From a virus: a stretch of DNA of 47,802 nucleotides. A program made the position numbers and the translations under genes. How positions within the stretch are numbered: position 1 is the stretch's first letter; each line of letters starts with the position of its first letter. The notes beneath the pieces were generated by a model. The model saw only the letters and a list, made by a program, of their open reading frames with translations. It had not been told where the DNA came from and did not search any database. The stretch spans positions 1 to 47,802 of the IMG/VR virus record IMGVR_UViG_3300025646_000073; one strand, given 5' to 3'. Positions 38,723 through 43,107 of the stretch are shown here, piece after piece.

Positions 38723-38741
38723 GGTTGGATTAACTCAATGT

Positions 38742-38749
38742 TATTTATA
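38742..38749 (-). promoter_or_regulatory. T4-type late promoter box TATAAATA for the baseplate operon
   Basis: Perfect TATAAATA on the minus strand in the gp48/gp4 intergenic region, giving a leader of about 31 nt for gp48. No other strong late box is seen until 26561, so it may serve the whole gp48-gp7 series. Confidence 0.75.
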
Positions 38750-38764
38750 TCCCAGGGAGGAAAG

Positions 38765-39253
38765 GTGGCTACGTACTCAGGTAGGTACAAAGTATTGAAT
38801 AAAGAAAAGTATAAAGGCGATCATACAAACGTTATATACCGTTCTCACTGGGAAATGCTTTGTTTTAAGTGGTGTGATACTCAACCATCGGTAAAAGAAT
38901 GGAGCTCTGAAGAGATCATCATACCATACTATTATGATGTCGATAAGAAGTACCATCGTTATTTTCCAGACCTCAAGATCAAGTTTACTGATGGGTCTAC
39001 TTATCTGATCGAGATAAAACCAGATAAAGAAACACGACCTCCAAAGGGTAAAAGAAAGACGAGACAATACATCACCGAAGGCTTGACTTATGTAAAGAAT
39101 ATGAATAAGTGGGAAGCAGCAAAGTCTTATGCAGATGATCGTGGCTGGAAGTTTGAGATATGGACAGAGAAGACGCTGCAGAAGATGAAGATCATGCCTG
39201 TTTTAAAGCCAATAAAGCCATTGCCACCGTTTAAACCGAAGAAACCGATATAA
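38765..39253 (+). CDS. gp4: Head completion protein gp4 (nuclease-like fold)
   Basis: Start chosen at GTG 38765: AGGGAGG ends 4 nt upstream and the product begins MATYSGRYKV, like T4-type gp4. The in-frame ATG 38738 lacks a ribosome site and would begin before the opposing promoter. 162 residues (T4 gp4: 150). YKGDHTNVIYRSHWEMLCF, WSSEEIIIPY, HRYFPDLKIKF and YLIEIKP follow. The E..PDxxxx..IEIKP arrangement is that of a PD-(D/E)XK nuclease-like fold, as noted for this family. gp4 acts after packaging to prepare heads for tail joining. The tail of the protein is Lys/Pro-rich. Confidence 0.85.
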   Translation: MATYSGRYKVLNKEKYKGDHTNVIYRSHWEMLCFKWCDTQPSVKEWSSEEIIIPYYYDVDKKYHRYFPDLKIKFTDGSTYLIEIKPDKETRPPKGKRKTRQYITEGLTYVKNMNKWEAAKSYADDRGWKFEIWTEKTLQKMKIMPVLKPIKPLPPFKPKKPI

Positions 39254-39262: not shown

Positions 39263-39862
39263 ATGAGTAACTTATTTCAAAAACTATCACAAGAAGCTTT
39301 TCGAGCTGGCATTAACCCGCGTACAAAGGAGTCTCGTGCATGGTTCATGGGAAAAGTAGCGAACATGAGGAGTATCAATCGATCAGCGTTGATGCGAGAA
39401 GATGTCATATCTCTAGAACAACCGAGATATACAAGAGACCTTATTGGTCGAATGTTCATGTTCTTCTATGACCCAAAGACGAAGGACGACTTACCTTACT
39501 ATGATAAATTCCCTTTGATTATCCTCGTTGGTCCTGCGCCTGGCGGATTTTATGGTTTAAACTTACATTATCTTCCGCCGATCTTTCGCGCAAAGATGTT
39601 AGACGCGCTGATGGACATCACGAATAATAAAGCATACGATGAGACGACTAAGTTTAGAATACGATATGAAGTGTTGAATCGTATGCGTAAGCTAAGATAT
39701 TTTAAACCATGTTGGAAACACTACTTACTTGACCACGTAAAAGGCAGGTTCGGTAGAGTAGATGCTCCTGAATGGGAGATCGCGACGTTTTTACCAACAG
39801 CCCAGTGGAAGAAGGCAACCTTCAACACTGTTTACAGAGATTCACGAAGGATGGTACTGTAA
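39263..39862 (+). CDS. gp2: DNA end protector, gp2-like
   Basis: 199 residues. The N-terminal FQKLSQEAFRAGINPRTKES, the central RMFMFFYDPKTKDDLPYYDKFPLI (split around residue 75) and GFYGLNLHYLPPI match the protein annotated in marine T4-like phages as gp2, from memory. T4 gp2 (274 aa) binds DNA ends in the mature head and blocks RecBCD. T4 genes 2 and 4 also lie close together, which fits. No strong ribosome site; translation may be coupled to gp4, 10 nt upstream. Basic C-half (WKHYLLDHVKGRFGR) suits DNA binding. Confidence 0.55.
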   Translation: MSNLFQKLSQEAFRAGINPRTKESRAWFMGKVANMRSINRSALMREDVISLEQPRYTRDLIGRMFMFFYDPKTKDDLPYYDKFPLIILVGPAPGGFYGLNLHYLPPIFRAKMLDALMDITNNKAYDETTKFRIRYEVLNRMRKLRYFKPCWKHYLLDHVKGRFGRVDAPEWEIATFLPTAQWKKATFNTVYRDSRRMVL

Positions 39863-40557
39863 TGCCAAGTATTGACGAGTTGAAAGGTATTGCCTCTGCC
39901 AAGCTAGGCTTTGCTCGTAACAATAACTTTTTAGTTGAGCTCCCGCCCCTGGGCAGAGGCGGGTTGTTTGGAGGCGGTCTCTTAGGCCAACTCGCGTCTT
40001 TTGTTCCTAGCATCCCGGGGTTGACCGGAACTCCAAGTCCAAGTACTCGTGAACTTAATGTGTTGTGCGAGACAGTCACTTTGCCTGGAAAACAGATGCT
40101 TACTCAAGAAAAGAGGATAGGCACCACGGTTGAAAAGGTAGCATACGGATACGCTGTCGATGATGTGAGCATGTCCTTTTACTTGTTGAACGACTATGGC
40201 GTAAAGCATTATTTTGATGGTTGGATGAACACCGTATTCAATGGCGAGACATATGAACCAGGATACAAGAAAGACTATGCAAAGACAGTGAAGATCCATC
40301 AGCTGAGAAAGCCACTCTTAGGTCTTTCAGGTGGACTTGGTCCTATCAGAGTGAACATCGGCGTTGGCGGTGGATCAGTGTACACAGTAGAACTGTTAGA
40401 AGCATTTCCTACGACTGTACAACAGATTGACTTTTCGAACGAACAAGACGGACTCGTACGAGTCACTGTCCAGTTATCTTACACGAACTGGAGAACAGCT
40501 AAGCCGTCTCAGAATTTCTTGAATATAGACATTAACCCAGGTCAGATTTTTGGTTGA
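39862..40557 (+). CDS. gp54: Tail-tube-like baseplate protein, gp54-like
   Basis: 232 residues from ATG 39862, overlapping the previous stop by one base (TAATG); the longer frame from 39772 would overlap gp2 by 91 nt. The N-terminal KLGFARNNNFLVELPPLG, central LCETVTLPGKQMLTQEKRI and GYAVDDVSMSFYLLNDYGV, and the C-terminal QQIDFSNEQDGLVRVTVQLSYTNW (in two parts) are the tail-tube fold shared by gp19, gp48 and gp54. In T4 gp54 sits on gp48 and starts tube polymerisation. Which of the two it is cannot be settled by eye. Confidence 0.6.
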   Translation: MPSIDELKGIASAKLGFARNNNFLVELPPLGRGGLFGGGLLGQLASFVPSIPGLTGTPSPSTRELNVLCETVTLPGKQMLTQEKRIGTTVEKVAYGYAVDDVSMSFYLLNDYGVKHYFDGWMNTVFNGETYEPGYKKDYAKTVKIHQLRKPLLGLSGGLGPIRVNIGVGGGSVYTVELLEAFPTTVQQIDFSNEQDGLVRVTVQLSYTNWRTAKPSQNFLNIDINPGQIFG

Positions 40558-40575: not shown

Positions 40576-41283
40576 ATGGCGTTACCACAGTTAAACACAA
40601 CCCCACGGTATCAAGTAAAGATCCCGTCAACAGGAAAGACGGTTCGTTTTCGTCCGTTCCTTGTCAAAGAACAAAAGGTATTGTTGATCGCATATGAATC
40701 GCAAGATAAGCAAGCGATCATCCAAGCGATGCTCGATACCTTAGACTCATGTACTGAAGGCATCAGCGCGGCTAAGTTGTCGACCTTTGATGCTGACTAT
40801 CTGTTTACACAGATCAGAGCAAAGTCTGTAGGTGAAGTCGTAGACTTAAACATCCAGTGTACTGAGTGTGAGACTCATAACGAGGTGAAAGTAAACCTCG
40901 AAGACATCAAGATGAAGGTCCCTAAGAAGGATATGGACGTTCAACTGACTGACCAGATCACGATGAAGATGAAGTACCCTGACTACAACTACTTCCTCAA
41001 GAATCCTAAGATCTTAGGCAATGACTCGATGGCCGAATCGCTGGTCGACATCGTGATCGCATGTATCGAATCAGTCAAGACTGATGATGAGATCATCAAC
41101 ATCTCAGATGAGCCAAGAGAAGAAGTCATTCGATTCATCGAGTCTCTGACAGCTAATCAGTTTGAGAAGGTTGCTTCTTTTGTGCAAGACATCCCGAAGA
41201 TGGAACACACGCTCAAGTTCAAGTGTATCAACTGTGAACATGAAAACGAAAGACACTTGGAGGGCCTCGAAGATTTTTTTTAG
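40576..41283 (+). CDS. gp26: gp26-type baseplate hub/assembly protein, unshifted form
   Basis: 235 residues (T4 gp26: 208). AAAAGGAG lies 6 nt before the ATG. The N-terminal FRPFLVKEQKVLLIAYES and central FDADYLFTQIRAKSVGE are typical of the T4 gp26/baseplate family (PF12322). Two CxxC pairs, C95/C98 (CTEC) and C217/C220 (CINC), probably form one zinc ribbon that brackets a helical centre. Like lambda gpG it sits directly before the tape-measure gene. Its stop codon overlaps a U8 run, where a -1 shift would extend it (see 40576-41468). Confidence 0.78.
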   Translation: MALPQLNTTPRYQVKIPSTGKTVRFRPFLVKEQKVLLIAYESQDKQAIIQAMLDTLDSCTEGISAAKLSTFDADYLFTQIRAKSVGEVVDLNIQCTECETHNEVKVNLEDIKMKVPKKDMDVQLTDQITMKMKYPDYNYFLKNPKILGNDSMAESLVDIVIACIESVKTDDEIINISDEPREEVIRFIESLTANQFEKVASFVQDIPKMEHTLKFKCINCEHENERHLEGLEDFF

Positions 41284-41468
41284 TATGCCTCTCTCATGAA
41301 TCCTTAGAGAACTACTATAAGGTGAACTTTCAGCTCTTACAAGAGTTTCACTACTCTCTTACAGAATTAGAAAGCATGTTACCTTGGGAGAGGGAGATTT
41401 ATTTGATTATGTTGATCGAGGATGTAAAAGAAAAGAACGACCAGATAAGACGCCAGCAACAAGGATAA
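40576..41468 (+). CDS. gp26 -1 frameshift fusion product (G/GT-like), 297 aa
   Basis: After slippage the ribosome reads TTA at 41280 and continues through 62 open codons to TAA 41466-41468, adding SHESLENYYKVNFQLLQEF, then LTELESMLPWEREIYLIMLI and EKNDQIRRQQQG. The extension is helical, and its 'PWEREIYLIML' block resembles the compact helical T-part of tail assembly chaperones. It has no ATG until codon 33 and no good ribosome site, so independent translation is unlikely. It ends 4 nt before the tape-measure start, as in lambda G/GT. The fusion would be the minor product that recruits the tape measure; that role is by analogy. Confidence 0.65.
41259..41283 (+). promoter_or_regulatory. Programmed -1 ribosomal frameshift signal
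   Basis: Elements in order: GGAGGG at 41259-41264 (internal Shine-Dalgarno-like), a 9-nt spacer, slippery heptamer T TTT TTT at 41274-41280 in correct zero-frame phase (GAT TTT TTT), then TAG 41281-41283. The spacing matches the stimulatory Shine-Dalgarno of E. coli dnaX. A stop straight after the slip site raises pausing. I see no strong downstream hairpin. Confidence 0.7.
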
Positions 41469-41472
41469 AAAC

Positions 41473-43107
41473 ATGGCATTAATAACTCTAGCACAGATCA
41501 ACGCTACTCTCGAAAAGCAGAACGAGATCCAATCTCAGACGCTTGACGAGACAAAAGCGGTAAGGTCTAATATTTCTTATCTGATAGAGACAGCAAAGGC
41601 TTCAAAGCTTGATAACCTCGAGAAGGAACGAGAGGCTAGTCAACAAAAGTCAAGGGCCGGTGCCAAGAGTGGTGCAGGTGGTGGCGAGATGAAAGGCGGT
41701 TCAGGTCTTGGAGGCATCTTTAGCGGGATCGCTGGCATGATCGGCGGTGCTGTAGGCACCATCAGTAGCATGTTAGGCTTGACAGCTCTCACTCCTCTCA
41801 TCACCTCTATCATGAGTTTTGCCAGACTCTTCTTAAGAGGAGGTGCCATAGGCTTTGTTTTATACTTGATCTACGATAACTGGGAATCTATCAAAGGCAC
41901 CTTCGAGAATATTTACAAAGCGCTTGAGCCTATCATCAAGTGGTTTAAGACAACGACGGTATACAAGTATTTAGAAGAAAACTGGGAACAACTCGTTACT
42001 GACTTCTTTGGCTTGTTCAGAAAGCTATTCAAAGGGATCGAACGACTCACTGCAGGTGACTTTAAAGGCGCGCTTGAAAACTTAGACGGACTTGCATTTG
42101 GTCTAGCAGGATTGATCGCGTTTACCAAGACAGGAAGAGGTATTGTGATGAGCGCGCTTGGTAGTGTGAAAGACCTCGTCACGACTGGTGTTGATAAGCT
42201 GACGGGGGGACCAAAAGGAAAAGGTCCATTAGGAAAAAGTCCACTTGAAGTGCGACAACTTGGTACCATAACAAACCCGATGTACGTAAAGGTTGTTGGC
42301 GGTATGGGCGGTGGATTGACTGACGTTGGTGGCCCAGGTGACCCAGATAAAGATAAAGGTAAAGATAAAGGTAAAGGCGGTAAAGGTAAAGGAGGAAGAT
42401 TTAGTAAGTTCCTAGATAGTGCGAAAGAGCTTGGTAAAACCGCTCTTGAAAAGGGAAAAGCAGTCGTAGGTGCTGGAGCCACTGCAGCTGCAAGCGGGTT
42501 GAAGACTGGCGCAGCTTATGCGGCGTCAGCGACAGGCGCAGCGACTCTTAGTCTTGGTGCAACCGCAGCTGCGATCGGATATGCAACCTACAAAGGTAAG
42601 GTACAAGCTGAAGAATGGGCAAAGCTTAAAGCTGAGATCGAAAAGAATGGCTTACCTGCTTTGAATGAAGAAGACTTGAAGAAGTTTATAGCTGCGCAAG
42701 AAGACTTTGCTGAAGCTGAAGATGCACCTGAAGGATTGATTCGCACGCCTGACGGAAATCCAGTCGATCGCTTCCTAACAGAACAAGCAAAGAGTTTATT
42801 AGAGAGTCGTAAGCTAAAGCCAAAGACTCGCGGCCTTGTCCCTGGAGGAATGGCCAAACGTGTAGGCGAACCGATCCCTCAACCTGCAATCAGCAAGCCT
42901 ATGCCTCAGACCGCTCCCGCACTGACTGCATTGAATAGAGAATCAAGAGCAACAAGTAACAAGCCAGTGGTCATCATGCAAGACGGTTCAAGTAAGGTAG
43001 TGAACAACGTGAACACGAGTAACCAAGGACTCGTCTTACCTTCTCCTCCAGTATTCGATCACCATGATCCGTTCTATGCCACCAGGGGATATGGCGTACC
43101 TTTGTAA
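41473..43107 (+). CDS. Probable tail tape measure protein (gp29 position)
   Basis: 544 residues (T4 gp29: 590). N-terminal coiled coil (LAQINATLEKQNEIQSQTL), Gly-rich linker, then hydrophobic stretches at ~115-137 (FLRGGAIGFVLYLIYDNW), ~205-225 and ~345-375 (Ala/Gly-rich). A Lys/Gly linker lies near 290-306. The C-end has 'VVIMQDGSSKVVNNVNTS' and a His/Tyr-rich tip. Long helical parts with hydrophobic segments, and position right after a G/GT-like gene, fit a tape measure. At ~0.15 nm per residue it would give a tail of roughly 80 nm. Ribosome site AAGG 9 nt upstream lies in the end of the frameshift frame. Confidence 0.6.
   Translation: MALITLAQINATLEKQNEIQSQTLDETKAVRSNISYLIETAKASKLDNLEKEREASQQKSRAGAKSGAGGGEMKGGSGLGGIFSGIAGMIGGAVGTISSMLGLTALTPLITSIMSFARLFLRGGAIGFVLYLIYDNWESIKGTFENIYKALEPIIKWFKTTTVYKYLEENWEQLVTDFFGLFRKLFKGIERLTAGDFKGALENLDGLAFGLAGLIAFTKTGRGIVMSALGSVKDLVTTGVDKLTGGPKGKGPLGKSPLEVRQLGTITNPMYVKVVGGMGGGLTDVGGPGDPDKDKGKDKGKGGKGKGGRFSKFLDSAKELGKTALEKGKAVVGAGATAAASGLKTGAAYAASATGAATLSLGATAAAIGYATYKGKVQAEEWAKLKAEIEKNGLPALNEEDLKKFIAAQEDFAEAEDAPEGLIRTPDGNPVDRFLTEQAKSLLESRKLKPKTRGLVPGGMAKRVGEPIPQPAISKPMPQTAPALTALNRESRATSNKPVVIMQDGSSKVVNNVNTSNQGLVLPSPPVFDHHDPFYATRGYGVPL
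42346..42392 (+). repeat. GATAAAG/GTAAAG microrepeat coding a Lys/Gly linker
   Basis: Alternating 6-bp units (GATAAA, GGTAAA) encode Asp-Lys and Gly-Lys pairs, a flexible basic linker in the tape-measure candidate. Units are multiples of three, so length can change without losing frame. Confidence 0.7.

Follow-up and report, generated by a model that had tools for sequence, protein, structure and literature searches.

In phage lambda, a -1 slip close to where the short frame ends yields gpGT alongside gpG; the two share an N-terminal domain, with a long putative tape-measure gene downstream, as is predicted for the locus described here. The lambda slippery sequence is G GGA AAG, and tail frameshifts were reportedly found to be conserved by Xu, Hendrix and Duda in 2004. 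The -1 frameshift of E. coli dnaX uses a Shine-Dalgarno (SD)-like element about 10 nt upstream, a slippery heptamer and a 3' hairpin. In T4-like phages, Vladimirov, Gautam and Davidson are said to have identified the tail assembly chaperones (TACs) in 2022 and to have proposed a mechanism other than frameshifting.

Hardies et al. (2007) described a two-gene chaperonin in Bacillus phage 0305phi8-36 that has short and long forms of one domain in a G/GT-like manner, encoded without a frameshift; the short/long pair is what it has in common with the family studied here (PMC2147016). Vandenendeviridae and Andersonviridae, which are other myovirus families and not T4-like, have a poly-U -1 site at the end of the TAC gene and an extension that is misannotated as a hypothetical protein, both of which recall the present locus; their site is an invariant GTTTTT, whereas the group studied here has T TTT TTN (PMC12846349). 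In an excerpt of the PRFect paper that draws on Vladimirov et al., some T4-like phages are given a separate short gene and a fused long gene (PMC10885494), and an excerpt of another paper cites the same authors for poly-T frameshift signals in T4-like TAC genes (PMC12846349). This later citation limits novelty. The link between the gp26 family and G/GT chaperones, which the earlier note on this DNA took to be new, is already known from Vladimirov, Gautam and Davidson (2022); as far as these excerpts go, the same may be true of the marine frameshift. T4 gp51 has been called essential in hub assembly, with a function there that is unknown, and is reported to be absent from the particle (PMC3004832). 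Sullivan et al. (2010) noted that gp51 in cyanophages reaches only about 20% of the length that it has in other phages and that Aeh1 lacks the protein (PMC3037559).

The window is the whole stretch of DNA analysed, 47,802 nt from a virus in the T4-like group (IMG/VR record IMGVR_UViG_3300025646_000073). Judged from its sequence, 40576-41468 is very probably a single tail-assembly-chaperone gene, predicted to specify two proteins via a -1 frameshift. The layout at 40576-43107 is a short gp26, a -1 extension and then a long putative tape-measure gene:

40576..41283, + strand: gp26, predicted short chaperone form, T4_baseplate family, 0 frame; 235 aa; PF12322, PHROG 150
41259..41264, + strand: GGAGGG, SD-like stimulator 5' of the slip site; read directly; anti-SD energy peak, GAG bias
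41274..41280, + strand: slippery heptamer U UUU UUU, phased for tandem -1 slippage; read directly; conserved in relatives
41281..41283, + strand: 0-frame stop TAG, abutting the heptamer; read directly
41280..41468, + strand: -1 extension, 62 codons plus TAA, predicted gp51 C-terminal part of the long form; PHROG 634; third positions vary most
41473..43107, + strand: following gene, coding for 544 aa, probably the tail tape measure protein; position, length, hydrophobic segments, weak PHROG 4200 match

The last codons of gp26 are GGC CUC GAA GAU UUU UUU UAG. The heptamer has the phase GA(U UUU UUU) UAG, lies within an 8-T run (41274-41281) and is separated from GGAGGG by a 9-nt gap (41265-41273). 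After the slip, 62 sense codons (41280-41465) lead to TAA (41466-41468), and the next ATG (41473) is 4 nt on. The -1 frame opens at 41244 and contains no ATG, GTG or TTG ahead of a conserved LSHESLENYY motif, well inside the extension. The earlier note had described this arrangement, from the GGAGGG, the gap, the phased heptamer and the abutting TAG to the 62 open codons ending 4 nt before the tape-measure candidate and the lack of an early start codon, and all of it was confirmed from the sequence. Among 12,647 codon positions in 26 window ORFs, an in-phase T TTT TTT occurs only once, at the gp26 site. The window combines a phased X XXY YYZ heptamer, a stimulatory element and a -1 frame under coding selection that has no start of its own.

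The sequence, its conservation, the selection acting on the signals, homology and copy number lead us to infer a mechanism in which most ribosomes would read gp26 and terminate at UAG to give 235 aa. In a minority, with GGAGGG paired to 16S rRNA, the two Phe tRNAs on U UUU UUU would slip back in tandem by one base, and these ribosomes would add 62 codons to produce a 297-aa gp26-gp51 fusion with the predicted junction peptide HLEGLEDFFLVCLSHESLENYYK. The slip frequency, or efficiency, would set the short:long ratio. If lambda G/GT is a guide, the domain common to both forms would coat the tape measure protein and the extension would bring in the tube subunit, and both forms probably help to build the viral tail; chaperone action of this kind is suggested by gene order, the short/long pair and T4 genetics. 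T4 makes its short form from gene 26 and its long form from the paralogous gene 51.

Homology searches were consistent with these assignments. Gp26 of the window matched Pfam PF12322 (E=2.8e-65) and PHROG 150 (E=2e-68), and it is the single PF12322 copy in the record. The -1 extension matched PHROG 634, annotated as baseplate hub assembly catalyst gp51 (E = 4.4e-23, match 41274-41465), and its 62 residues also matched the C-terminus of PHROG 150. PF12322 is present in both the short and the long forms, as in the gp26/gp51 family. The frameshift proposed for gp26 in the earlier note stood, and an identity is now added to the -1 frame: it is gp51, and the pair is gp26 and gp26-gp51. The product of 41473-43107 is probably the tail tape measure protein, on the basis of position, length, hydrophobic segments and a weak match to PHROG 4200, 'tail length tape measure' (E=0.0016); BLASTP of T4 gp29 against this product gave no significant match. 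The G/GT analogy of the earlier note was apt: the short and long forms have a common N-terminal domain, and a long gene for the putative tape measure follows. The window differs from lambda in its slippery sequence, its SD-like stimulator and the contractile T4-like tail, and no sequence similarity of its chaperone to lambda G/GT was found. It has the SD-like element and heptamer in common with dnaX, whose 3' hairpin is shared with a P-SSM2-like subgroup of relatives; dnaX differs in that it is a host gene with A AAA AAG and in that its shift truncates rather than extends the product.

A structure model of gp26 had a pLDDT of 86.6, and no solved-structure match was found by sequence. In the fold search with gp26, HK97 gp13 entries 2ob9 (0.51) and 3fgx (0.41) had the highest probabilities among the PDB matches listed, but these matches were not significant, at E > 1 (E = 1.2 for 2ob9). 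A T4-type gp51 was folded in place of the long form, since MAFFT alignments put the extensions mid-alignment, and the fold search with this model found no chaperone. Window gp26 contains two CxxC motifs, CTEC and CINC, which might together make up a zinc site; in T4 gp26 and gp51, cysteines occupy similar positions, and cyanophage-type proteins have CPDD and lack the second CxxC motif. Upstream in the window, 38738-39253 matched a head closure (gp4-like) protein (PHROG 218, E=2e-54) and also a TnsA-like endonuclease N-terminal domain (PF08722, E=7e-19). Taken from its first ATG, the tail tube initiator ORF (39772-40557) shares 91 nt with the DNA end protector ORF; the true start is probably the later one, close to where the upstream gene ends.

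Relatives were drawn from viral contigs and annotated phages. The site is carried by 175 complete loci, of which 126 were non-redundant after filtering at <85% nucleotide identity. T TTT TT[T/C/A] was in phase at the same place in all 126, whereas the amino acids and the codon usage of gp26 predict about 61; the formal p of about 1e-41 is too small, as the loci are related and the chance estimate overstates their independence, but the contrast is still large. At comparable residue pairs elsewhere in gp26, U UUU was found in 155 of 422 cases. The last base of the heptamer is C in 72 loci, U in 51 and A in 3, and these U UUU UUU/C/A variants are those permitted by the tandem-slippage model. The 0-frame stop ends 3 nt past the heptamer in 47 of the 126 loci and 6 nt past it in 75. 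In the first set of relatives, the extension, wherever present, was always in the -1 frame. In 19 loci a -1 frame stop lies just 5' of the heptamer and the -1 frame opens exactly there, such that the two frames could be joined only by a slip at the heptamer. A long ORF starts within about 10 nt of the extension stop in most relatives checked. Relatives with the site include KVP40-type (L178) and Aeromonas 65-type (L192) loci, Caulobacter Cr30, Agrobacterium OLIVR5 and pelagiphage Mosig. Conservation in relatives, which the earlier note had proposed as a check, holds for the U-run, the SD-like element and the -1 frame alike.

Two loci groups depart from this pattern. In a 236-kb viral contig (L148:2501-3391; also L201), gp26 and the extension occupy one frame (TCT TTT TGG TTA GGA ATG), and neither a slip site nor a second gp26 copy was found in L148. 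It differs from close relatives by a net 2 nt, so a simple one-base homopolymer error is not the cause. Ackermannviridae KN2-1 and Kuja (L090:3001-3960; L095:2992-3935) have one PF12322 gene each, with -1 open extensions of 53 and 63 codons. U UUU UUN was not found in either phage, whose genes end in GAG ATT TTC ATT TAA and AAC CTT TTT CAA TAA; any slip site there is of another kind.

The signals around the heptamer were analyzed across the same loci. The energy of anti-SD duplexes over the 126 loci showed one sharp peak, with a mean of -6.9 kcal/mol for the segment ending 7 nt 5' of the heptamer and values of about zero nearby, and this peak partly follows from a conserved Gly codon. The Glu codon ahead of that Gly is GAG in 67/83 loci, compared to a background of 27% elsewhere (p = 3e-24), and no comparable codon bias was found in loci with Lys or Gln in place of Glu. 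From the excess of GAG, the SD-like element is under synonymous selection. No downstream RNA structure was found in the window (z = +1.1), and the hairpin of the P-SSM2-like group is missing from its lineage. This hairpin, in 40 cyanophage-type loci, has an 11-bp stem 5 nt 3' of the heptamer (e.g. L003:3708-3750). One of its pairs is UA in 20, GC in 10 and AU in 7 of the distinct rows. Cells changed on both sides numbered 19 versus 6.0, above all 500 shuffles; the 40 loci were selected for at least 9 pairs, which biases the percentage paired, but this choice of loci alone does not explain the covariation.

Open length in the -1 frame is weak evidence alone (base composition gives P about 0.01 for 62 codons), but the PHROG 634 match, the substitution pattern and the conserved site show that the open frame has not arisen by chance. 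Substitutions relative to close relatives fell at -1 codon positions 1/2/3 in counts of 12/6/29, 13/7/30 and 13/6/30, and this concentration at third positions indicates that the extension is translated in the -1 frame. Readthrough of the TAG in the 0 frame was rejected, as that frame has many further stops. Translation of gp51 as a separate short gene, with its own start codon and termination-reinitiation at the end of gp26, agrees with public records that annotate gp51 separately, with an ATG 5 codons past the heptamer in 38/126 loci, and with Cr30 and S-CRM01, where the stop overlaps an ATG. However, 121/126 loci have no -1 ATG, GTG or TTG at or 5' of the heptamer, 72/126, window included, have none until more than 8 codons past it, annotated gp51 starts can remove conserved residues (C48C1, 34 aa), and in the P-SSM2-like group the ATG 5 codons past the slip site sits inside the hairpin stem. 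A separate gene would also leave the selection on U UUU UUN unexplained. The homologues, in which the earlier note had suggested looking for a separate start, mostly have none. We consider a separately started gp51 very improbable overall, and it was rejected for the window, where the start codon is missing.

Slippage by RNA polymerase, in which a U added to some transcripts at the 8-T run would yield the fusion from edited mRNA, appears more improbable still. Eight T is long enough for some transcriptional slippage, but the run is only 6 T long in 75/126 relatives, which is too short for productive slippage, and the presence of only 6 T in most relatives disfavours this explanation. Ribosomal slippage, by contrast, agrees with the phase, with the third base allowed and with the SD-like element. 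A sequencing or assembly error splitting one long gene at the T-run, in keeping with the error-prone nature of homopolymers and the single fused frame of L148, has next to no likelihood and is already refuted as a general explanation, since 175 loci from finished phage genomes and many assemblies are divided at this very position, mostly with a run of only 6 T. The predicted ribosomal frameshift is very well supported by the evolution of these sequences.

In T4, gp26 (208 aa) and gp51 (249 aa) both match PF12322; in gp51 the match covers residues 1-201, followed by residues that align with the extension. Gp26 is thus the short form and gp51 the long form, encoded by two divergent genes without a frameshift, whereas the window has one gene and a slip site. 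T4, JS98 and AS-gz have two PF12322 copies (short gp26, long gp51), compared to one in the window and in the nine complete genomes with the slip site that were checked, and PHROG 634 has no matches other than at the -1 extension or within gp51. From these copy numbers, the marine T4-like "gp51" is, on sequence grounds, the extension of gp26 and not a truncated gene. Genes 26 and 51 of T4 (L084:2803-4229) are adjacent, divergent and 50 nt apart, as they are in JS98 and AS-gz, which suggests an inverted duplication. A tree of the shared domain placed T4-type gp26 and gp51 together on one side of a branch with support of 96/93, which is what a single duplication taking the place of the frameshift in that lineage would produce. 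Because this tree has long branches and no root, the direction of change is read from the spread of the frameshift over many lineages, KVP40 and 65-type phages among them.

We tentatively hypothesize, with slightly more doubt than confidence, that the frameshift is ancestral across the T4 superfamily (Kyanoviridae, pelagiphages, Caulobacter Cr30, Agrobacterium OLIVR5, KVP40-type and Aeromonas 65-type), that T-evens replaced it once by inverted duplication into divergent 26/51, that misannotation accounts for both the 'truncated gp51' of cyanophages and the Aeh1-type 'missing gp51', and that no earlier description of the site, the SD-like element and the lineage-specific hairpin reaches this level of detail. 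The frameshift accounts directly for the short cyanophage gp51 and, by analogy with Aeromonas P19 and 65-type loci, would account for the 'missing' gp51 of Aeh1.

The standing oddity of the short cyanophage gp51 is thereby explained as the frameshifted end of gp26, and many public T4-like records annotate gp26/gp51 wrongly. T4 gp26 and gp51 are tied to the short/long chaperone logic of lambda, and the two arrangements offer a natural comparison between two ways to set one protein ratio. The main value of the finding lies in clearing up gp51 and the evolution of the T4 tail.
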